NCBI RefSeq assembly: GCF_029893105.1
Contig: NZ_JARXWG010000005.1
Location: 1-64,000, forward strand
DNA from: Parabacteroides sp. PF5-9
GTDB taxonomy: Bacteria > Bacteroidota > Bacteroidia > Bacteroidales > Tannerellaceae
Direction of reading: 5' to 3'
Length of the DNA: 64,000 bases
Of this stretch, positions 16,549 through 28,103 are shown in pieces; positions within the stretch are counted from its first letter, which is position 1, and each line of letters starts with the position of its first letter. Both the position numbers and the translations under genes were made by a program. The notes beneath the pieces were generated by a model that worked only from the letters and a program-made list of their open reading frames with translations, searched no databases and had not been told where the DNA came from.

Positions 16549-17142
16549 TTACTTAATCTTTATTCCGTTGAATATCAAATTTATTACATTCTCCCGGCGT
16601 CTTACCCGCTGACTGATATTATCACCCATTACACCTCGTATGTACGGCACTTCCAATCCTTTCAAACAATGATGAAGAACCAAAGCGGTTACATGGGTAT
16701 CGGGCATTCTGAAAACCCCTTCTTCTACCCCTGCATCCAGAATGCCTTCTATAATCTCTATTTCGCGTATATCAAAACTCTTACGAACCTTCTCCACACG
16801 CCAAATATCCCTGAAAAAATTAGCCCTCAATGTACCGTTACGAAAAACCAACGCTTTCACAGCATCCAGTCTCGTATAAATAAAGGTGATTAATTTATCG
16901 TCTGCCGGCAGATCCTTTTCAGCCACATCCAAAAGCATCTTATGCAATTTATCCAACTCCGACTCCACCACAGCCAGATAAACCTCATTTTTACTCTTAA
17001 AATAGGTGTAAAGTGTACGCCTTCCTTTTCGTGAAGCTTGTGCTATATCATTCATGGTGGTGTTGTCCACACCCATGCGAGCAAACAATTGTCTGGCCAC
17101 ATCCACTAACATATCCCGTGTTTTTGACACACTCACCGGCAT
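16549..17142 (-). CDS. TetR/AcrR-family regulator of the fabH-fabG cluster
   Basis: A 197-residue protein with an N-terminal TetR helix-turn-helix (about 10-52; MGVDNTTMNDIAQASRKGRR and TYFKSKNEVY) and a helical effector domain. It lies 8 bases upstream of the FabH-like gene and is presumably cotranscribed with it, which suggests control of lipid synthesis genes, like FadR/FabR-type TetR proteins (inference). Inverted repeats GCACA-N13-TGTGC (17150-17172) and CCAAGT-N12-ACTTGG (17201-17224) upstream are candidate operators. Confidence 0.9.
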   Translation of the reverse strand: MPVSVSKTRDMLVDVARQLFARMGVDNTTMNDIAQASRKGRRTLYTYFKSKNEVYLAVVESELDKLHKMLLDVAEKDLPADDKLITFIYTRLDAVKALVFRNGTLRANFFRDIWRVEKVRKSFDIREIEIIEGILDAGVEEGVFRMPDTHVTALVLHHCLKGLEVPYIRGVMGDNISQRVRRRENVINLIFNGIKIK

Positions 17143-17946: not shown

Positions 17947-20064
17947 TCATATTGTAAATCTAAAAATACTCCCCTCCCCTCTTACACTCTCCACAGCAAG
18001 CGTACCGCCATGCTTCTCGATCAGTTCTTTACAGACGATCAGCCCCAGGCCGTTTCCCTGTTCTCCGGAAGTCCCTTTCTGTGATTGACGGCGGTTGATC
18101 TGGAACATTTGATGGAGTTGGTCGGAAGAGATGCCGATACCGGTATCACGGATGATAAAAGTGTGATTTTTGCCGGTTTGTTCTACGTATAAGGAGACGA
18201 GTCCGCCTTTGTGAGTAAACTTTACGCCATTTGTCAATAGGTTACGGACGATGGTCGCCACCATGTTCCGGTCGGCAGTCAGGATCGTGTTGACGGGTAT
18301 CTCTATATGCAGGAGAACGCCTTTGTTTTTAGCCATATTGTTTAACAGGGATATATCGGTGGCTAATTCCGTTGCCAGATCAAAAGCCGTAGGCGAATAA
18401 GGCATACGTCCGGTCTGTACCTGCGCCCAATTGAGCAGGTTATACAATAGTTCAACCTGACTGTCTGCCGACTTGAGTAACTCATTGTAGTAGGTCGAGA
18501 GCGACTCCGTGTCCCACTCTTTGGCATAATCGATCAACATTTGTAACGCTTCACGCTGGGCGATGGCGGGGTTTTTCAAGTCATGGGAGATAATACTGAA
18601 GAACTGGTCTTTGGTGGCGTTCATTTCGGCCAGTACCCGGTTGCGTTTGGTTCGAAGAGCCAGGACATACCAAAGGAGTATCAGGATAATAAAGCAAACG
18701 ATAAATCCGGATAACAGAATAAAGCGGTGCAGGTTCTGTTGCTTGATCACATGCTGCTGCCGTTCGATTTCCAACTCTTTTTCGGCTGTTTGATATTGAA
18801 TGTGGAAGTTGTTGAGTTGGTGCTGTGTCTCTTCCTTTTGCAGTTGTTTGAATAGTTCGGTCGATTTTTCTAAGTAATTGAGTGCAAGAACAGGATTCTG
18901 CGGTTTATGCAACGTATAAAGTCTATCGTAAGCAAGCATAACATCTTCCGACCGGTTGTTTTTCTCATTTTCAGCGACAGCACGCAACAGGTATTTTTCG
19001 GCATGAGCCTGACTGATACCGCTTTCGAGGTATATATCGCCCAGATGCAACAGACAGAGACTGACAAATTCGCTGAATGCATATTCCTCTGATGCCGTTA
19101 AAGCAATATTCAGCCGTTCAATGGCTTCACCCCATTCCCGTTTTTTCTTATGGATCAACGCCATGGCTATCCAGCAATCGATTTTGAACGAAATCCGATC
19201 CACCTGTTCGCATAACAAGTAGGACTCCTCGATACAGTCCCGGGCTTCCTCAATCCGATCCAGATCGATATAGAGGTTACACAATGCGTTCAACGACCAG
19301 ATAATCATTCGGGTATTCTCCAGTTCGCGGTTAATTACCAACCCTTTTTTGATACAGTCGATTGCCGACTCATTATTCTGATTATGTGTATGAAGGCTAC
19401 CCATACACAATAAGCTGTTGGCAACCATTGCCTGATCGCCGATAATTGTGGCGATAGCCAAACTCTCTTTCAGGCAGTCGAGTGCTTTGTCGAATTGCCC
19501 GGTAGAGGCGTAGTTTACATACAGGTTTTGCAATTTATGGATGATACGTGTGGAATCATTTATCTGGCGATAGAGGCTAAGACTCTTTTCGTTGTGAAAA
19601 ATCGCTTCCACATAATTGCCCCGGTCGGAGTAGTAGAGTGCCATTGCGCCATAAATAATCGCATCGATCAAATGCGGAGTCTCTTTTTCTGTCAGAGGAT
19701 TGATCTTATCGATATGCCCAAGTGCATGAATACGATCGGCAAGCTGGTTGGCCATTTCTACATGTGATCGGCCTTCGCTTTGGGAGAATACGGAGAACAG
19801 GCTATCTACATCCTGCCCCAATGTCAGGGTAGAAAAACTAAAAGAGAACAGTATGCCGATCAGGATTTTAATTCCTTTATTCTTTAAAAGCTTCTTTATC
19901 CTCTTTTTGTTTATCGACGATTTATCCAACCGTTTTTCGACATTTCGAACCCCTTCTTCTTCCGACAGCCAGTTGTCACTTTGCTCGATCAATAAGTCGC
20001 AGTAACGTTTTGTTTTTTCAGCTAAGGAGATAATCTCTTTTTTGTCCGGTTTCTTTGTCGCCAT
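17947..20064 (-). CDS. TPR sensor histidine kinase with an N-terminal extension
   Basis: A 705-residue kinase. Residues 1-62 are a charged Lys/Glu-rich stretch, followed by a hydrophobic signal/anchor segment (about 65-83), an extracytoplasmic TPR domain (about 90-430) and a membrane helix (about 445-470). The cytoplasmic kinase has H-box ISHDLKNP (His about 493), N-box NLLTNGVKFT, G1 DTGIGIS and G2 GNGLGL. It pairs with the response regulator at 22242. Its paralogue at 20270 starts directly with the signal peptide, so the 62-residue extension is peculiar to this copy; no internal ATG offers a shorter start. It has its own promoter and operator at 20084-20156. Confidence 0.93.
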   Translation of the reverse strand: MATKKPDKKEIISLAEKTKRYCDLLIEQSDNWLSEEEGVRNVEKRLDKSSINKKRIKKLLKNKGIKILIGILFSFSFSTLTLGQDVDSLFSVFSQSEGRSHVEMANQLADRIHALGHIDKINPLTEKETPHLIDAIIYGAMALYYSDRGNYVEAIFHNEKSLSLYRQINDSTRIIHKLQNLYVNYASTGQFDKALDCLKESLAIATIIGDQAMVANSLLCMGSLHTHNQNNESAIDCIKKGLVINRELENTRMIIWSLNALCNLYIDLDRIEEARDCIEESYLLCEQVDRISFKIDCWIAMALIHKKKREWGEAIERLNIALTASEEYAFSEFVSLCLLHLGDIYLESGISQAHAEKYLLRAVAENEKNNRSEDVMLAYDRLYTLHKPQNPVLALNYLEKSTELFKQLQKEETQHQLNNFHIQYQTAEKELEIERQQHVIKQQNLHRFILLSGFIVCFIILILLWYVLALRTKRNRVLAEMNATKDQFFSIISHDLKNPAIAQREALQMLIDYAKEWDTESLSTYYNELLKSADSQVELLYNLLNWAQVQTGRMPYSPTAFDLATELATDISLLNNMAKNKGVLLHIEIPVNTILTADRNMVATIVRNLLTNGVKFTHKGGLVSLYVEQTGKNHTFIIRDTGIGISSDQLHQMFQINRRQSQKGTSGEQGNGLGLIVCKELIEKHGGTLAVESVRGEGSIFRFTI

Positions 20065-20083
20065 AATCTATAGAATTTATATC

Positions 20084-20156
20084 GACAAAGTTCGATACCG
20101 TCGAGAACCGCAACAATGAGTAAAAATACTCAATCTGTCTAAGTAATATTACTTAG
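20084..20156 (-). promoter_or_regulatory. operator and promoter of the second histidine kinase gene
   Basis: On the minus strand, in order: the 18-bp perfect palindrome CTAAGTAATATTACTTAG (20139-20156), a 7-bp spacer, GAGTATTTTTACTC (20118-20131), an abutting ATTG (-33), 20 bp, then GAACTTTG (one mismatch to the -7 TAnnTTTG). The start codon is at 20064. The same arrangement lies before the secreted-protein operon at 23003-23067, so both are probably bound by one regulator, most simply the LuxR-type response regulator encoded at 22242. Confidence 0.65.
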
Positions 20157-20269
20157 TACAAACTGTTCAAAAAGGTTATAAAACGCGAGTTCGACATAAA
20201 AACAGGCTTTGAATGGAAGAAGATGGAAAGAGGTTCTCTTCAAATTTTGCCCTATTTGAAACTTGTTCA

Positions 20270-22213
20270 TTATATAGTGAACCAAAAGCGGCTTCCTTTT
20301 CCCTCTTCACTTTCCACATGAAGGGTGCTTCCGTGTTTTTCGATCAGCTCTTTGCAGACGAGAAGACCGATTCCGCTACCGTGTTCACCGGCTGTTCCGG
20401 TTTTTGAGCGTTGACTGTCGAGAAGGAAGAGAGTTTTCATCTGTTCTCGGCTCATGCCTGTGCCTGTATCGGTAACAGAAATCCGACAATGACTATTCTC
20501 TTCCGGTTGTATCTCCAAGGTGATACATCCGTCTTTACCTGTGAATTTCACGGCATTGGTCAAGAGGTTACGCACAACGGTCGTCAGCATATTCCGGTCA
20601 CCCGTCACCATAGCGGTATCGGGCATTTGAACACCCAAGGTAATTCCTTTCCGGTCTGCCATATTCCTAATCAGGGCAATATCCAAATGCAACTCGGCAG
20701 TCAGATCGAAAAGTGCCGGTTTGTAAGGCATCCGTCCGGTTTGCACCTGTGCCCAGTTCAGGAGATTATAAAGCAACTCGACCTGTCCGTCTGCTGATTT
20801 AAGAAGTTCTTCATAGTAAAGAGAGAGGGACTCTGTGTCCCATTTCCCCGAGTGAGCGATCAGTTGCTGTAGTGCATCACGCTGTGCGATCACAGGATTC
20901 TTCAGGTCGTGTGAGATGATACTGAAAAATTTGTCTTTGGTGGTGTTAATTTCGGCCAACACCCTGTTGCGTTTGTTTCGCAGATTGACAATAACCATGA
21001 GCAATGCCACCAATATTCCAGCGATAACCAATCCGCCGATAAATACATATTGCCGGGTTTTATGCTTCTCTATTTCGGCCTGTTGGCGCAGGATTTCAAC
21101 ATCTTTTTGCTGTGTGTCATATTTGACTTGAAACTCATTGATTTGTTGTTGGGTAGACTCCTGAAACAGCGAGTCGTTCAAGGCGATAAATTGCTCCAGT
21201 GTCGAAAGGGCAAGCTGTGGCTGATCCGTCTGTTTGTATAATTGATGGAGTGTATTCAATGCTTCGCGTTTACTTCTTCTGATCGTATACGCTTCGGCCA
21301 GCGCAATACAACGGGTCAAGACATCAATACCCTCTTTATACCTTTCCTCTTTCAGATAGAGCCGCCCCAGCGACATCAGCGAAACAACCTCCATCCGTTG
21401 ATTTCCTTTTTTTTCAAAAAACTGAAGTCCTAGGCGGAAACTCGCTTCTGCTTGTTCCAAACTATCGAGTGCAAAATAGATATCTCCTTTGATATTCAGG
21501 TGTACGGCAATACGATCTCCCTTTACACCCTCATTCAACGTTTCATCCATGGCCAACGCTTCTTCAATGAGTGGTAAGGCCTCTTTGGCTTCACCCAATA
21601 AGAGTGTCTCTTTGGCAAGTGAGGCCAATCGGTTAGCGTAATAGAGCGGACGTGCCAGCACACGTTCCATATCTATGGCTTCCTGAAAAAAGCGAATAGC
21701 CGCTTCATGTTGTCCCCACTGGCTATGCACGATACCCAAACTATTCAACGTCACACTAAGCCCCTCTTTATCGTCTATCTCTTTTTCATATACATAACAT
21801 TTCATCAATAGTTGAACCGATTTCTCATACTCCCCCAAATAATGGTAGTTGATTGCCGCATCACCATACATGATATCGGCCGACAAAAATTCACCCACCT
21901 GTTCATAAAGTTTTGCCGCCTCCAAATAAAACAATGTGCTTTTGTTGTAATCCGAATGTTGGTGTTTGGCGTAATATCCCATGACTTCAGATATAATGGC
22001 CTGCTGGTGTTTCGTCGACAGGTTATTGTCTATTTGAAAAAGCGTATCCACATAATCTAGTTCGTACACCGTCCGGGCAATCTCATTGGCAAGTACAATC
22101 TGCTTATTTCGACTGGATTGGGTGTAAAGCGAAAACAAGCTGTCTACATCTTGTGCACACAACACAACGGAAAAAAGAAATAACAGTGCGAGAAGTAATT
22201 TTATTTTATTCAT
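20270..22213 (-). CDS. TPR sensor histidine kinase
   Basis: A 647-residue kinase with a signal peptide (about 1-20, VVLCAQ) and a periplasmic TPR domain (about 25-375). A membrane helix (about 390-412) precedes a HisKA/HATPase unit with ISHDLKNP (His about 436), NLLTNAVKFT, DTGTGMS and GSGIGL. It starts 28 bases after the response regulator stop and is likely cotranscribed with it. It is clearly homologous to the next gene (shared QDVDSLFS after the signal, NLLNWAQVQTGRMPY in the DHp region), so this is a tandem duplication. Confidence 0.93.
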   Translation of the reverse strand: MNKIKLLLALLFLFSVVLCAQDVDSLFSLYTQSSRNKQIVLANEIARTVYELDYVDTLFQIDNNLSTKHQQAIISEVMGYYAKHQHSDYNKSTLFYLEAAKLYEQVGEFLSADIMYGDAAINYHYLGEYEKSVQLLMKCYVYEKEIDDKEGLSVTLNSLGIVHSQWGQHEAAIRFFQEAIDMERVLARPLYYANRLASLAKETLLLGEAKEALPLIEEALAMDETLNEGVKGDRIAVHLNIKGDIYFALDSLEQAEASFRLGLQFFEKKGNQRMEVVSLMSLGRLYLKEERYKEGIDVLTRCIALAEAYTIRRSKREALNTLHQLYKQTDQPQLALSTLEQFIALNDSLFQESTQQQINEFQVKYDTQQKDVEILRQQAEIEKHKTRQYVFIGGLVIAGILVALLMVIVNLRNKRNRVLAEINTTKDKFFSIISHDLKNPVIAQRDALQQLIAHSGKWDTESLSLYYEELLKSADGQVELLYNLLNWAQVQTGRMPYKPALFDLTAELHLDIALIRNMADRKGITLGVQMPDTAMVTGDRNMLTTVVRNLLTNAVKFTGKDGCITLEIQPEENSHCRISVTDTGTGMSREQMKTLFLLDSQRSKTGTAGEHGSGIGLLVCKELIEKHGSTLHVESEEGKGSRFWFTI

Positions 22214-22241
22214 AACTGATCAGATTTAGAACTTTTGCAGA

Positions 22242-22889
22242 TTACTCCAAGCTGACTATTCCATGTTTCAGTGCATATTGCACCATCTCCATCGTGTTGT
22301 TGATACCAAGTTTGCGGAAAATATTGTTCTTATGGTTATCTACCGTGCGCGAACTGATACAGAGTCGGTCGGCAATCTGTTTACTTAACAATCCATCACG
22401 ACAGAGGAGTATAATCTCCTTTTCTCGTTCGGTAAACTCCGGTGTGACTTCGGCGGTTCGTTTTTTGGAGACATAGATCTTGTAGATAATGGCGGAAATA
22501 TCATTCCCGAAATAGTCAAAACCGTTCATAATCGCGCGGATGGCCTGTGCGATCTCATCCGCTCCTCCCTGCCGTTTGCTGATAAACCCTTCGATGCCAA
22601 TATCCAACATCTCCTGTATGACATCGGCCGTGTTTTCGGCGGAGATCGCCAATACTTTTATAAGGGGATACTCCTTTCTGATCCTTCGGGCAATTTCTAT
22701 TCCGGTCATATCGGGCAGGGCTATATCCAGGAGGATAATATCCGGCGTTACGGTTTCAAGCAGACGGAACAAGGCTGAACCGCAATCTGCTTCACCGGCG
22801 ATGCAAATATCGGTATGCCCATTCATGATCGCACTTTTTATCCCCAGACGAAACAGGGCGTGGTCATCAACTAAAATTGTGTTTATCAT
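22242..22889 (-). CDS. NarL/LuxR-family response regulator
   Basis: A 215-residue two-component regulator. The receiver domain (1-125) has the acidic pair near DDH and the phosphoacceptor D55 in ILLDIALPD. The LuxR/GerE helix-turn-helix (about 148-210) has LTEREKEIILLCRDG and SSRTVDNHKNNIFRKLG. It is followed by the two TPR kinases and is divergent from the secreted-protein operon. A plausible role is to bind the paired operator at 23003 and at 20118-20156; NarL-type proteins often bind TAC-containing heptamers, and TACTTAG and TACTC occur there. Confidence 0.94.
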   Translation of the reverse strand: MINTILVDDHALFRLGIKSAIMNGHTDICIAGEADCGSALFRLLETVTPDIILLDIALPDMTGIEIARRIRKEYPLIKVLAISAENTADVIQEMLDIGIEGFISKRQGGADEIAQAIRAIMNGFDYFGNDISAIIYKIYVSKKRTAEVTPEFTEREKEIILLCRDGLLSKQIADRLCISSRTVDNHKNNIFRKLGINNTMEMVQYALKHGIVSLE

Positions 22890-23002
22890 AAAAGTAAAAG
22901 AACAAGATTTATTTTGAAAATCAAAGCGTAAGATACTGTCTATCTTTCACAAATCAAAATCTGAAAAAGATTTTCTATCTCTTTCCCTCGTTCTATTAAG
23001 CA

Positions 23003-23067
23003 AAATTACTTAGTCCAATTTGAGTAAAATTACTCATTGACAGGTTTTTCCCCGGCACATACTTTTG
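23003..23067 (+). promoter_or_regulatory. operator and promoter of the secreted-protein operon
   Basis: TTACTTAG at about 23006-23013 is followed after 8 bp by GAGTAAAATTACTC (23022-23035), then ATTG (TTG 23037-23039), exactly 20 bp, and TACTTTTG (23060-23067), a perfect -7 TAnnTTTG. The order and spacing copy the element before the kinase gene at 20064. The transcript would start near 23075, giving a leader of about 60 nt before the lipoprotein start. Confidence 0.7.
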
Positions 23068-23139
23068 TGGAGTGAACTTTTCATTGGTGCAATCCAAAAA
23101 AGAAGAGTAACAAACAAACAACTACTAAATATGACAATT

Positions 23140-24801
23140 ATGAAAACAAAGTACATCTTAGGAATGATCCTTTCCGCGGCAGTCTGGTTGACCGGATGCG
23201 AGTATGACGACAATGAATTATGGGATACAGTAAACGGTCAGGCCGTGCGCATCGCTGCATTGGAGCAATGGCAAAAGACGGTGAACAGCAACATCTCCAC
23301 TTTACAGGGGATTGTTTCGGCACTTGAGTATAACGACTATGTAACGAAAGTGACTCCATTTGACACTCCGGCACCGGGCGGCTACACAATCGCATTCGCC
23401 AATAACTCGCCAATCACCATCTATAACGGCACTGACGGAAAAAACGGCACTGACGGAAAGGATGGTGCAGACGGAAAAGACGGCTCGACACCCGTTGTGG
23501 GAGTGAAGGAATATCCCGCCAAAAGCGGAGTCTACTATTGGACGGTAAACGGTGAATGGCTTTCCATCGACGAAAAGTCCCCAGACAAGAAGATACCCGT
23601 GACGGGTGAAAAAGGTAGAGACGGAGCGACACCGAAGCTGGCTATCGGCACCGATAACTACTGGTATATCTCAGCCGACGGCACAGCCTCCGGTAAGGCC
23701 CCGGGTGCAGGTTGGGCAAATACAGGCGTGAAAGCCACCGGAGACAGAGGGGCGGATGGCGCCAAAAGCGATAACATTTTCGCCTATAACGGCGTAGACA
23801 ATACCCACCCGGATTATGTGCTATTCAAACTCGCCAACGGAGAGATTATCTCCTTACCCAAATACAGAACCCTTGGTATCAGTTTCAGTCAGCCGGAAAT
23901 CTTTATACCAAACAAAGAACAAGTGATCTCATTCATTGGAACAGGCACGACAGAATCGACCAACATCTGGGCGATAGATATTCCGGAGGGATGGAGTATA
24001 TCAGTCAATCTGTTGGCTAAAACAATCACTATCACACCTCCAAAGACAATTGGCCCGGCTAATTCGGGAGGCACGTCAACGATACTGGTTGCCGACGGTG
24101 ACCGGGTAACGGCCATGTACAGATTGACACTCAATTCCGTATCCAACAACGAGAAAGGCTCCACCTATTATGAAAACGGCAAAGCGACGGGTATGATCTA
24201 TATCCCTACCGGGGAGCCCCGCGATGGCACAGGCCGCATAATAAGCCTACAAGAATCAACGGCAGCGTGGGCAGAGAGTGGATATGACAATGATCAGACG
24301 GGATGCGACTCTTACACAAACGGTCGATTGAATATGGCGGCAATGGCCACCTATATCCGCGACAACGATAAATCGTGGAGTAATTTCCCCGCATTCGAAT
24401 GGATACATACGATGAACGGTGGCACAGCCAACTATACGTCTGACGCTACGGGTCTTTGGTATTTCCCAGCCCCAGCGGATTTACAATATTTATTATGTGC
24501 GGCAGCCGAAAAGCCGTTGCAGACCTGGTCCTGGCCTGACAGTGATAATCCAAAGAAATATTTAGCTCCGTTTACATTTGACTTGACGACATTTAATGGT
24601 TGGCTGACGGCTAATGGCGGGACAGCACTCTCCATTAGTGAGGCAAAAGCCTACCGGTTGTCCAAAGAGCAAGAAGTTGGTGGTGATGATGGTAAGTACT
24701 ACTATATGTGGTGTATCAGTTTCTATGAAGGAGAAACAGCGAACACTGCCTATAAGGAATATAGTAAATACTCTCTCACCCGGGCTATCCTGGCATTTTA
24801 A
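23140..24801 (+). CDS. DUF4988-type lipoprotein with collagen-like repeats
   Basis: A 553-residue lipoprotein: the signal peptide ends in a WLTGC lipobox. It then has a short coiled segment (VNGQAVRIAALEQWQKTV), typical of DUF4988 / PL29 N-terminal domains, and Gly-x-x collagen-like stretches (DGKNGTDGKDGADGKDG; GEKGRDGATP; GDRGADGAKS) alternating with small beta modules. A C-terminal domain (about 350-553; GLWYFPAPADLQYLL) resembles DUF1566/FISUMP folds. It is probably surface exposed. In-frame ATGs exist at 23131 and 23140; 23140 gives the more regular signal peptide. It is the first gene of the operon driven from 23037-23067. Confidence 0.85.
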   Translation: MKTKYILGMILSAAVWLTGCEYDDNELWDTVNGQAVRIAALEQWQKTVNSNISTLQGIVSALEYNDYVTKVTPFDTPAPGGYTIAFANNSPITIYNGTDGKNGTDGKDGADGKDGSTPVVGVKEYPAKSGVYYWTVNGEWLSIDEKSPDKKIPVTGEKGRDGATPKLAIGTDNYWYISADGTASGKAPGAGWANTGVKATGDRGADGAKSDNIFAYNGVDNTHPDYVLFKLANGEIISLPKYRTLGISFSQPEIFIPNKEQVISFIGTGTTESTNIWAIDIPEGWSISVNLLAKTITITPPKTIGPANSGGTSTILVADGDRVTAMYRLTLNSVSNNEKGSTYYENGKATGMIYIPTGEPRDGTGRIISLQESTAAWAESGYDNDQTGCDSYTNGRLNMAAMATYIRDNDKSWSNFPAFEWIHTMNGGTANYTSDATGLWYFPAPADLQYLLCAAAEKPLQTWSWPDSDNPKKYLAPFTFDLTTFNGWLTANGGTALSISEAKAYRLSKEQEVGGDDGKYYYMWCISFYEGETANTAYKEYSKYSLTRAILAF

Positions 24802-24903: not shown

Positions 24904-26616
24904 ATGAAGACAAAAGTATTTTTTATAACATTGTTGCTTAGCCTGTTTAGTATAAACAGCGGTTATGCGCAACTGGGTAACGCTTTGAAGAAAGCGAAAG
25001 AGAAAGCAAAGGAGGTCGTAAAGGATACGACAAAAGAGACGGTTCTGCCCGAAAGTAAGACAGAACAGGCTCAGGAAAAAGCAACAACTCCAGACGCTGA
25101 TTCCAGACAGAAAGCCAGTTCGGGAAATAAACTCAAACCTTCTGCTGCCGCTATTGCTGCCGATCCAAAAGCCAGCGACGAAACGATTGAAAGTGGCTTT
25201 ACCAGATCTCATAGCGAGATACGTGCTCATTACGAACAACTGTCGGACAAGGTCTATTATAAACCCTACTACGCTGACGAATGCAACTATTTTTATGCGC
25301 TCGGAGAAGAACAGCAACAAGTATTTCAGACGGAATTGAGTTATGTCGAGCAGACTTATCAGGCTGCCCGCAAATTTGCACACATAAAGATCATACAGCC
25401 AATAAACTATCGGAATTACGTGAAAGTAAAAATACCGGCTTACCGCGAAAATCCCGCGCGTGAAGGGTACGCTGTCATAGGGCAACATGCTGTATATGCT
25501 TACTTTGCCCAATTCGCAGCCGATCCCGAAGGTTTTTACCCGTACCTGAACTTTGTTTCCGCACGCGTGGCTCATACGGCACTCAGCTTCTTTAAGGTGG
25601 CCGAGTGGATGAACAGAAATGGCGAACAATGTGAGTGTGCGATCACGCTCGAAGACGGCAGTAAAGCCCAATTAGTAGAAAGTTTTCAGGGGTGGAAACT
25701 TAAAATGAACGATGAATTTTTCCGCTTAAACAAGATACTTAACGAACAAACCCCCTTTAATACCATTGGAAAAGCGGCGGTCGGTGTCTTGCAGCAAATG
25801 AAAAAAGCGGAAAGCGATAGCAATTTACCGATACTGCGTATGTATTTCCACCGGTATGAAACCATCATAGACGATTTGATGAATCATCCCCAAAAAGTAG
25901 AAGAAGAGTCATATTTTATGCTTGTACGCGAATACAACGCATACAAGGAAAAATACGAAGGATGGGCTGCTACCACAAAATCAGCCAATAATTATAATCC
26001 GACAAGCGCACAAACGCAATCAAACAGTAACTCCAACGAAACCAAAGCGGCGGTCGACGACAAGGAAGGGGTTGTTATTAACGGTATCAAATGGGCGATC
26101 TCTAATATCGCCGCTCCCGGCACCTTTGCCGCCAAACCCGAAGATGCAGGTTTGATGTACCAATGGAACCGGAAAAAAGGCTGGCATGCAACCACACCAA
26201 AGAATTTCGAAGGCGATTGGATTAATAAAGAACAAACCGGCAAGGTATGGGAAAAAGCGAACGACCCCAGCCCGGAAGGATGGCGTATACCAACCTTAGC
26301 CGAAATGCAAAAGTTGTTGGATGAAACCAAAGTGACTCAAGAATGGATAACTGTAAACGGAGTACCGGGAAAGAAATATACGGATAAAGCTTCCGGCAAG
26401 TCTATTTTTCTTCCGGCTGCAGGTAGTCGCCACCAGGGTAATGGTAATCTCAACAAGCTGGCCGGTGACAACGCTTCCGGAGCCTACTGGAGTAGCGAGG
26501 CTACTGTTCAACGAAATGCCCACTGTCTGACCTTCGCCAAGACATTTTCAAAAGCAGATAATTACTCGGCTGCAAATGGCAATTACGGTTATTGCCTCCG
26601 TTGTGTGAAAAAATAA
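24904..26616 (+). CDS. secreted protein with C-terminal FISUMP domain
   Basis: A 570-residue exported protein. The signal peptide (about 1-22, SGYAQ) is followed by a Lys/Glu-rich amphipathic helix (LGNALKKAKEKAKEVV), a Glu/Ala-rich linker and a largely helical middle domain (about 85-355) that I do not recognise. A C-terminal Fibrobacter-succinogenes-major-paralogous-type domain (about 380-570) has VINGIKWAISNIAAPG, PEGWRIPTLAEMQKLLDE and the closing GYCLRCVKK. The function of the domain is unknown; it is found in many Bacteroidetes surface proteins. It lies 102 bp after the lipoprotein gene with no visible terminator between. Confidence 0.88.
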   Translation: MKTKVFFITLLLSLFSINSGYAQLGNALKKAKEKAKEVVKDTTKETVLPESKTEQAQEKATTPDADSRQKASSGNKLKPSAAAIAADPKASDETIESGFTRSHSEIRAHYEQLSDKVYYKPYYADECNYFYALGEEQQQVFQTELSYVEQTYQAARKFAHIKIIQPINYRNYVKVKIPAYRENPAREGYAVIGQHAVYAYFAQFAADPEGFYPYLNFVSARVAHTALSFFKVAEWMNRNGEQCECAITLEDGSKAQLVESFQGWKLKMNDEFFRLNKILNEQTPFNTIGKAAVGVLQQMKKAESDSNLPILRMYFHRYETIIDDLMNHPQKVEEESYFMLVREYNAYKEKYEGWAATTKSANNYNPTSAQTQSNSNSNETKAAVDDKEGVVINGIKWAISNIAAPGTFAAKPEDAGLMYQWNRKKGWHATTPKNFEGDWINKEQTGKVWEKANDPSPEGWRIPTLAEMQKLLDETKVTQEWITVNGVPGKKYTDKASGKSIFLPAAGSRHQGNGNLNKLAGDNASGAYWSSEATVQRNAHCLTFAKTFSKADNYSAANGNYGYCLRCVKK

Positions 26617-26640
26617 AATGAACAAAAAAACAATGATATT

Positions 26641-27642
26641 ATGAACAAAATATGCTTTTTTAGAACCTTAATGGCGATAGTCATTATGTTCACAACAGGT
26701 ACAGACGCACAAGCGCAAGGGTTGAAAGGCCTTGTAAATAAAGTTAAAGATAAAACAGGACAGACGGCTACCAAAGAGGGCGGAGGTGCAGTAGCCGGTA
26801 AAGCGGTCATGCTTAAACAACCCTGGTCGGTAGGCGAGAATGGGACAGGGAGTGTACAGGCGACATTTGCAGATGGTGTCCTGACGATCTCAGGAACAGG
26901 GCGAATGAAAAATTTCGATGTCACCATGCATTCCGACAACCGTCCGTGGGGCGCACATGCCAAGGATATAACGACCGTAATCGTGGAGGAAGGGGTTACC
27001 CGTGTCTCATCACCTGCTTTCTATAGGTGTGAAAACATCACATCGGTCTCTCTGCCCAGCACATTAACAAGCATTGGCGGAAGCGCGTTCTATGGGTGTA
27101 AATCTTTGCCTACGATTACGCTACCCAAGAGTTTGACTGATTTCGAAACGGGACAGATACAAACCGACCAGGGAACAAAGGAGCGAGCTGGTCTGTTCGA
27201 GCAGTGCACAACGCTTAGCGAAATTAAGGTAGAGGCCGGAAATGCGAAGTACAAAGCCATAGACGGCATACTGTATGAATTCTTTAGTAACAAATGGCGA
27301 TTGAAAGCTTATCCGGCAGGACGTTCGGCCACTAAATTTACCATTCCCGACAATACACCGGTTATACAGACAGGCGCTTTTGCATCATGTCAGGCAATCA
27401 AAGAAGTCATATTACCTGCCAGTTGCGGAACCATCGATGAGGTTGCTTTCAAAGACTGCGTGAATCTGCAATCACTCACCATGAATCAGTCGTCGGGAGT
27501 CGTCTCTTTGAGCCGGCATGCCTTTCAAGGTGTAGAGATGACGAAAGTTAAGTTCATCGTTCCCTCCAAACTCCTCAACGACTACAAAACCCGCCCCGAC
27601 TATGAGTGGAGGGATTGGGCCGATCAATTTACAGGGAAATAA
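26641..27642 (+). CDS. secreted BspA-like leucine-rich-repeat protein
   Basis: A 333-residue exported protein. The signal peptide (about 1-26, TDAQAQ) is followed by an amphipathic helix, GLKGLVNKVKDKTGQ, like that of the upstream protein. Then come a small beta segment (GTLTISGTGRM-like, residues 60-80) and LRR_5/BspA-type repeats (ITSVSLPSTLTSIGGSAFYG; AIKEVILPASCGTIDEVAF). Such proteins bind host or microbial surface ligands in known cases. It is 24 bp after the FISUMP gene and 2 bp before the next gene, so it is in the same operon. Confidence 0.88.
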   Translation: MNKICFFRTLMAIVIMFTTGTDAQAQGLKGLVNKVKDKTGQTATKEGGGAVAGKAVMLKQPWSVGENGTGSVQATFADGVLTISGTGRMKNFDVTMHSDNRPWGAHAKDITTVIVEEGVTRVSSPAFYRCENITSVSLPSTLTSIGGSAFYGCKSLPTITLPKSLTDFETGQIQTDQGTKERAGLFEQCTTLSEIKVEAGNAKYKAIDGILYEFFSNKWRLKAYPAGRSATKFTIPDNTPVIQTGAFASCQAIKEVILPASCGTIDEVAFKDCVNLQSLTMNQSSGVVSLSRHAFQGVEMTKVKFIVPSKLLNDYKTRPDYEWRDWADQFTGK

Positions 27643-27644
27643 TC

Positions 27645-28103
27645 ATGGATATAGGTATACTCAACTCAATCAGCTCCCGGCGGGAAGCACTCTGCGCGCA
27701 TTACAACCTGCCGGAAGATGCTGAGCGAAAAGTAGCGGAACTATTTGCCCGGATCGAACGGTTCGGGCAGACCTGCTGCGATCAGGCGGACTTTGAAAAG
27801 CAATTCCTTATTTCTGAACTGAACCAGATATATACGAATTTTTTTACGGAATTTGCGCCTTATGTAAAAACACCGGAAGGAACAATAACAGTGGAAGAGC
27901 AACAGCAACAAGCGGCTAACGAATTAGCAGAGTCGGTTGTGAAAAGCCAGGCGAAACGAACTGTCAAAAGCGCTTTTGTGCAGATGCTTCCCCGACCTCT
28001 TTACGACTGGTATATCTATGGCATATACAATATTCCGATACTGGGTCGCATCCTGGGAGCGAAGAATAATATTGAACAGATTAAGCGTTTAAAAAAGAAG
28101 TAG
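27645..28103 (+). CDS. unrecognised 152-residue protein, last gene of the secreted-protein operon
   Basis: The frame is open from 27606, but the ATG at 27645, 2 bases after the upstream stop, gives a sensible start (MDIGILNSISSRREAL). There is no signal peptide. The first 85 residues look helical and acidic, followed by Gln/Ala-rich sequence (EEQQQQAANELAESVV) and a short C-terminal hydrophobic patch (LYDWYIYGIYNIPILGRIL). I do not recognise the family. Its position suggests a cytoplasmic or membrane-associated partner of the secreted proteins. Its stop codon lies inside the shared terminator hairpin. Confidence 0.75.
   Translation: MDIGILNSISSRREALCAHYNLPEDAERKVAELFARIERFGQTCCDQADFEKQFLISELNQIYTNFFTEFAPYVKTPEGTITVEEQQQQAANELAESVVKSQAKRTVKSAFVQMLPRPLYDWYIYGIYNIPILGRILGAKNNIEQIKRLKKK

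Follow-up and report, generated by a model that had tools for sequence, protein, structure and literature searches.

At class II activator promoters, such as those with CRP centred at -41.5, the activator site overlaps the upstream promoter element, and small feedback proteins of two-component systems are exemplified by MgrB and Sda. In Porphyromonas gingivalis, according to the accessible parts of two reports, FimR, the partner of the sensor kinase FimS, regulates positively and binds to the promoter of mfa1 (PMC1974823; PMC11053733). The -7 element of primary-sigma promoters in Bacteroidota is given as TAnnTTTG in the available portion of another study (PMC7366714). Here we analysed 64,000 nucleotides of Parabacteroides sp. 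PF5-9 (contig NZ_JARXWG010000005.1, positions 1 to 64,000; "the window"), which encode a LuxR-type response regulator (at 22242), two tetratricopeptide repeat (TPR) histidine kinases, named kinase A and kinase B, and a surface-protein operon divergent from the regulator gene. Comparison with related genomes makes it probable that this locus is a FimS/FimR-like two-component system that acts on a two-dimer, class II-type operator and drives surface genes together with a feedback microprotein, here fused to the second kinase.

Kinase A and the regulator would be the core of a self-contained system. The phosphorylated regulator would bind, as two dimers, two palindromes 23-24 bp apart; this is about two helical turns, and therefore the dimers would lie on about the same face of the DNA. 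The proximal dimer, near -42 and overlapping the -33 element, would recruit RNA polymerase to the -7 box. The responding units would be the surface-protein operon and the gene with the constant microprotein part, here fused to kinase B, and the microprotein product may be a feedback arm on kinase or regulator, with damping slightly favoured as the sign of the feedback.

Two tandem-palindrome modules and their geometry

The window has two copies of an operator-promoter module, one before kinase B on the minus strand and one before the surface operon on the plus strand (Table 1). When the sequence was re-read, both stood where a preliminary description of this DNA had placed them, and its 18-bp perfect palindrome, abutting ATTG, 20-bp spacer and two -7 boxes were all correct. 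That description had an upstream half followed by an operator; the order holds, and the upstream half, TTACTTAG, can now be read as the right half of a second palindrome, which is perfect before kinase B and imperfect before the operon, with one mismatch to the palindrome pattern TRAGTANNNNTACTYA. Each module is therefore made of two palindromes in tandem, with centres 23 bp apart in the kinase B module and 24 bp apart in the operon module. In both, the proximal palindrome abuts ATTG and the -7 box lies 20 bp further; the operon box fits TAnnTTTG and the kinase B box is one base off. The string TTACTTAG-N5..10-GAGTA-N4-TACTC occurs twice in the window, compared with 0 of 100 shuffles, and twice in the whole 3.69-Mb genome. 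TRAGTANNNNTACTYA without mismatch occurs at three places in the genome (20117, 20140 and 23021), all within the regulator/kinase locus. Allowing up to one mismatch gives 32 places versus 81 for the reversed control, so these looser matches are background. The module model described below gave no third module in this genome; by sequence, its proposed regulon consists of two units.

Related genomes came from a family sample of 123 and an order sample of 393, and many of them are incomplete metagenome-assembled genomes (MAGs). A model of the module, using sequence only, was built from seven aligned modules with 31 of 73 columns invariant. Among the family genomes it found 11 modules at E <= 2.2e-13, spread over five genomes: the window genome (two), G023 from another genus (one), PF5-6 (G073; four), PM6-13 (G074; two) and PFB2-10 (G075; two). 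Seven of these were the model-building set and four were new (two each in G073 and G075). Conservation of the motif at related loci, which the preliminary description had made its test, was thus borne out, the module recurring in four related genomes and also away from the regulator. Both modules of PFB2-10 are far from the regulator locus (contig 6, 12.5 kb versus 166.7 kb; contig 21) and precede a lipoprotein gene and the microprotein gene; the promoter has therefore been kept with its genes. PF5-6 has a copy of the window's DUF4988 gene (73% identical) on another contig, with a module. In PM6-13 and PFB2-10 a different lipoprotein-like protein follows the module; the two are 87% identical to each other and 25-28% identical to the window's lipoprotein over 157-197 residues.

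Two further modules of PF5-6 were observed. One (L076:8674-8746) is intact and lies next to the regulator, and no convincing gene follows it; the DUF4988 copy with a module is on another contig. The other precedes a gene (L076:11723-13726) for a protein with fibronectin-III and thiol-activated-cytolysin-like domains, which is divergent from a stand-alone microprotein gene, the central palindrome being common to both.

At E <= 0.1, 36 of the 123 genomes had a match, many near chance level. MAGs of genus g15 had weaker modules at this threshold, with 12 (G078), 8 (G081) and 7 (G080) matches when overlapping matches on opposite strands are counted separately. Two of the g15 modules precede TPR-kinase-like genes (L133, L144), so kinase control recurs in this genus. 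Around more distant regulators (26 loci from an order-wide draw, L170-L195, 41-50% identical to the window's, with 1.5-kb flanks), there were 2 tandem-palindrome matches versus 3.5 in shuffles and no microprotein. The architecture of tandem palindromes plus microprotein seems limited to the closer clade.

The distance between the centre of the proximal palindrome and the -7 box was compared in 35 modules of eight palindrome types. It was 31 bp in 24, 30 bp in six, 32 bp in one and 27 bp in one, and no -7 box was found in the other three (G014, L012, G101). A distance of 30-32 bp in 31 of 35 compares with 0.27 expected from shuffles of the same stretches, and a second candidate -7 box was present in only one module. 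ATTG abuts the palindrome in 25 of the 35. Intervals between neighbouring palindromes (n = 47, in 37 regions, nine types) were 23-24 bp in 38 and 33-34 bp, one helical turn more, in five; the remaining four were 22, 14, 43 and 35 bp. Many of these modules came from a model or detector that favours a 23-24 bp spacing, and the 33-34 bp modules were found as model matches carrying an insertion (three in G080, one on contig 79 of G098) or by eye (G101). The three modules of G080 (L128, L129, L130), with palindromes 33 bp apart, lie between divergent promoters, and both palindromes are shared by the two promoters of each pair. Within the group of five near genomes, 23 bp and GAnCTTTG occur together at the five microprotein promoters, and 24 bp and TAnnTTTG at the other six modules.

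The proximal palindrome centre is 31 bp from the -7 box; if transcription starts about 7 bases past the box, this centre would be near -42, the class II position. The preliminary description proposed that the regulator activates the surface genes and one of its kinases, and the promoter placement fits the activation. A site that abuts or overlaps the -33 element, as in 25 of the 35 modules, would also suit a repressor. The same regulator might therefore bind and repress, with dimers over the -33 element blocking polymerase until the signal relieves the block. We consider this unlikely, because the second, upstream palindrome keeps a distance of 23-24 bp, or of a further helical turn, the -33 element is weak or absent in ten modules, as in activator-dependent promoters, and FimR, the nearest described system, activates according to the part of the report available (PMC1974823).

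The microprotein behind the modules

The first membrane segment of kinase B is preceded by about 60 residues. This N-terminal segment is all that the module drives in PF5-6, PM6-13 and PFB2-10, where it is encoded by open reading frames of 65, 57 and 60 residues, and the one kinase B match in each genome at E <= 1e-60 is kinase A at the regulator locus. Kinase B is not a conserved feedback target, because these three relatives have the segment alone, without a second kinase. This part of the preliminary description has to be given up; the constant predicted target of the module is the N-terminal microprotein of about 60 residues, not kinase B. Fusion to kinase B was found in the window genome, G023 and G080. 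G080 also carries, behind a module, a truncated copy of 44 residues that keeps the first ~34 conserved residues (L128:4826-4969). In G098 (L079:9967-11124) an in-frame fusion puts the microprotein before a signal-peptide-like stretch and then an unrelated protein.

A microprotein profile matched 14 of the 123 family genomes, or 13 after removal of one weak match, and one further genome, G362, among the 393 of the order. The microprotein is also encoded at L005, L007, L008, L009 and L011, which are loci with regulator homologues. It adjoins the regulator and is divergent from it at nine loci (G078, G081, G098, G106 twice, G362, L007, L008 and L009). A tandem palindrome was found up to 260 bases upstream at 14 of 21 microprotein loci, compared with 0.52 expected from shuffles; among the misses, two in G080 have the 33-bp form, outside the range of the scan, and L007 has an imperfect pair. 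Both microprotein genes of G106 adjoin their own regulator, and before each there are four palindromes of the AGTT type at steps of 23-24 bp (L081:4697-4790 and L082:2210-2300).

Over 49 codons, five microprotein copies had nonsynonymous differences per site (pN) of 0.06-0.21 and synonymous differences (pS) of 0.59-1.02, which indicates strong purifying selection. No convincing match was found among Pfam and NCBIfam families: each match occurred in one of nine members, and the best E value was 0.018. AlphaFold predicted a single helix of residues 8-62, with a mean predicted local distance difference test score (pLDDT) of 83 and a predicted template modelling score (pTM) of 0.43. The microprotein is probably cytosolic. 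Weak second matches prompted a comparison with the kinase dimerisation (DHp) domain as a possible object of mimicry; hhalign gave this a probability of 0.2%, and the candidate was rejected.

The microprotein might have no function of its own and be merely the N-terminus of kinase B, its stand-alone open reading frames being decaying remnants. The fusion in three genomes and the truncated copy in G080 would agree with this, but we think it quite improbable. The stand-alone copies of the three Parabacteroides genomes have pN of 0.10-0.21 versus pS of 0.59-0.72, so the microprotein is under selection both alone and when fused. Moreover, diverged stand-alone copies adjoin the regulator at all of the nine loci above except that of G098, where the fusion partner is an unrelated protein of secreted type.

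The regulator and its recognition helix

Regulator presence was scored at E <= 1e-40 and, for co-occurrence, module presence at E <= 1e-6. Among the family genomes the regulator is present in 15, the microprotein in 13 and the module in eight. The regulator accompanies the microprotein in 10 of 13 genomes (p 5e-9) and the module in 6 of 8 (p 3e-5), and all 8 module genomes have the microprotein. A tandem-palindrome detector blind to palindrome family gave 34 pairs in 43 stretches, compared with 3.6 in shuffles. On reading, 22 of the 34 were judged to be operator pairs next to the regulator or to one of its targets, and overlap between two loci makes four of these 22 the same site; the remaining 12 were sequence of other kinds.

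Of 28 aligned regulators, 19 could be given an operator, by eye for those outside the GAGT group. The core GAGT goes with the helix SxRT[VI]xNHK, ACGT with xxRTV[DE][TK]HK, AGTT with SVFTVNSHK and CCCT with S[IF]HTVNTHK, and the cores CCCC, CGGA, CGGT, CACC and AGGT are each found in a single lineage. In all there are nine palindrome types; relatives of the regulator use the eight other than the window's, with the geometry kept. Over 14 lineages the distance between helices correlated with that between operators (r 0.28, p 0.018), also when the receiver domain was taken into account (r 0.21, p 0.043), and the rest of the helix-turn-helix (HTH) domain showed no correlation (r -0.03). Where the third residue of the helix is arginine or lysine, the third core base is G in 8 of 8 lineages, compared with 1 of the 6 lineages that have another residue there (p 0.003, a post hoc test). 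The variable helix positions match the base-contacting residues of NarL. These data support, without proving, that the operator sequence tends to change with the recognition helix of the regulator. In a tree of the 28 receiver domains, regulators of the GAGT and ACGT types need two changes each, of which well-supported branches force only one; a repeated origin of an operator type is suggested.

Geometry that is kept while the palindrome changes with the helix supports the regulator at 22242 as the binder of the modules and favours activation. Several observations weigh against this. Nine of the 28 aligned regulators have no assignable operator, and ATTG is missing next to the palindrome in ten of 35 modules. 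The operator also correlates with receiver-domain distance over the 14 lineages (r 0.21, p 0.044), and the correlation between helix and operator loses its significance when 12 lineages are used (p 0.17). A simple phosphorylation switch is at odds with FimR, of which the phosphorylated and unphosphorylated forms bound alike in the accessible part of the report (PMC1974823). PFB2-10 has no module beside its regulator, and G023, G080 and G014 have a module or the microprotein and no full regulator at E <= 1e-40. At 1e-20, too, none was found in G023 and G014 (genomes 54% and 70% complete), and the regulator-related sequences of G080 are only a receiver-domain fragment and distant homologues. On contig 153 of G080 (L166), near a module, a regulator homologue ends after its receiver domain, with no HTH seen in any frame. 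These last genomes would fit modules bound by another factor, such as the protein of TetR type at 16549 or a different response regulator, with the regulator at 22242 a mere neighbour; this is very unlikely, since modules and microprotein co-occur with the regulator across genomes and operators of equal geometry and other sequence, changing with the recognition helices, lie beside its relatives. The preliminary description's choice of binder is supported by conservation and helix tracking, with the microprotein in place of the kinase as the second predicted target.

Genes of the locus and comparison with known systems

The kinase B module is located between the two kinase genes. The regulator passes the Pfam cut-offs for Response_reg (81.2 bits; cut-off 30.2) and GerE (60.8 bits; cut-off 23.5). 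Both kinases, encoded beside it, have a TPR sensor region, HisKA and HATPase, and scored 308.6 and 323.1 bits against the NCBIfam FimS equivalog (cut-off 600). Gene order and short gaps suggest that the surface operon is co-transcribed.

Table 1. Features of the regulator/kinase locus in the window
Feature	Coordinates	Strand	Basis
Distal palindrome, kinase B module, CTAAGTAATATTACTTAG, 18 bp, perfect	20139..20156	-	sequence
Proximal palindrome, kinase B module, TGAGTATTTTTACTCA, abuts TTG (ATTG = 20117-20114)	20117..20132	-	
-7 box, kinase B module, GAACTTTG, 31 bp from proximal palindrome centre	20086..20093	-	
Distal palindrome, operon module, TAAGCAAAATTACTTA, imperfect	22997..23012	+	
Proximal palindrome, operon module, TGAGTAAAATTACTCA, abuts TTG (ATTG = 23036-23039)	23021..23036	+	
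-7 box, operon module, TACTTTTG	23060..23067	+	
Response regulator, receiver and LuxR/GerE domains, helix SSRTVDNHK; proposed binder of both modules	22242..22889	-	Pfam
Kinase A, TPR histidine kinase; best NCBIfam model FimS, below cut-off	20270..22213	-	domain search
Kinase B: microprotein domain, membrane segment, TPR sensor, HisKA, HATPase	17947..20064	-	domain search
Microprotein domain (first 60 residues of kinase B), a separate protein in three Parabacteroides genomes	19885..20064	-	
DUF4988 lipoprotein, first gene of surface operon	23131..24801	+	domain search
Rest of proposed operon: weak Fib_succ_major protein, BspA-type leucine-rich repeat (LRR) protein, 165-aa protein without Pfam match	24904..28103	+	

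No paper describing this operator or microprotein was recognised in the literature searched, judged mainly from titles and abstract openings and with subscription journals thinly covered. We tentatively suggest, at less than even confidence, that the gut Bacteroidales have a circuit class without description in that literature: a fixed two-dimer geometry, an operator sequence repeatedly rewritten with the recognition helix (nine palindrome types), and an activated feedback microprotein that belongs to a new family and can become, by capture, a domain of a second kinase. If so, the rewriting of operator and helix would insulate parallel systems, and one scaffold with one promoter geometry and nine operator sequences would be a natural series for how LuxR-type recognition helices specify DNA. 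To our knowledge few activator geometries are known on Bacteroidota -33/-7 promoters, and a concrete one would be added, together with a conserved small protein with a possible signalling role, of a family absent from the libraries searched. The proposed regulon of the window genome, with its two units, is small enough for complete testing.

The locus resembles FimS/FimR in having a TPR sensor kinase and a response regulator predicted to act at promoters of surface-structure genes, and the module before the lipoprotein operon is consistent with a regulator of such genes. FimS is the best NCBIfam model for both kinases, but at about half its cut-off, so the locus is not classed as FimS/FimR. 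In place of fimbriae, the predicted targets are DUF4988 and LRR-type proteins, and a palindromic FimR operator, a second kinase and a microprotein are not described in the accessible parts of the reports on FimR (PMC1974823; PMC11053733). With the NarL/FixJ (LuxR-type) regulators the regulator shares its receiver and GerE domains, and its solved structural relatives are VraR, EvgA, NarL, DevR and RcsB; the difference is that two perfect-type palindromes stand in fixed tandem, tied to a -7 box of Bacteroidota, and are present in at least nine sequence versions among relatives. As at class II activator promoters, the predicted activator site overlaps the upstream promoter element and its distance to the -7/-10 box is constant, but there are two dimer sites and the sigma factor is that of Bacteroidota, with TAnnTTTG in the part of the source available (PMC7366714). 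Like MgrB and Sda, the microprotein is a small protein predicted to be under the control of the system that it accompanies, with an operator upstream at 14 of 21 loci; it differs from them in having no convincing Pfam or NCBIfam match and in occurring also fused to a kinase.

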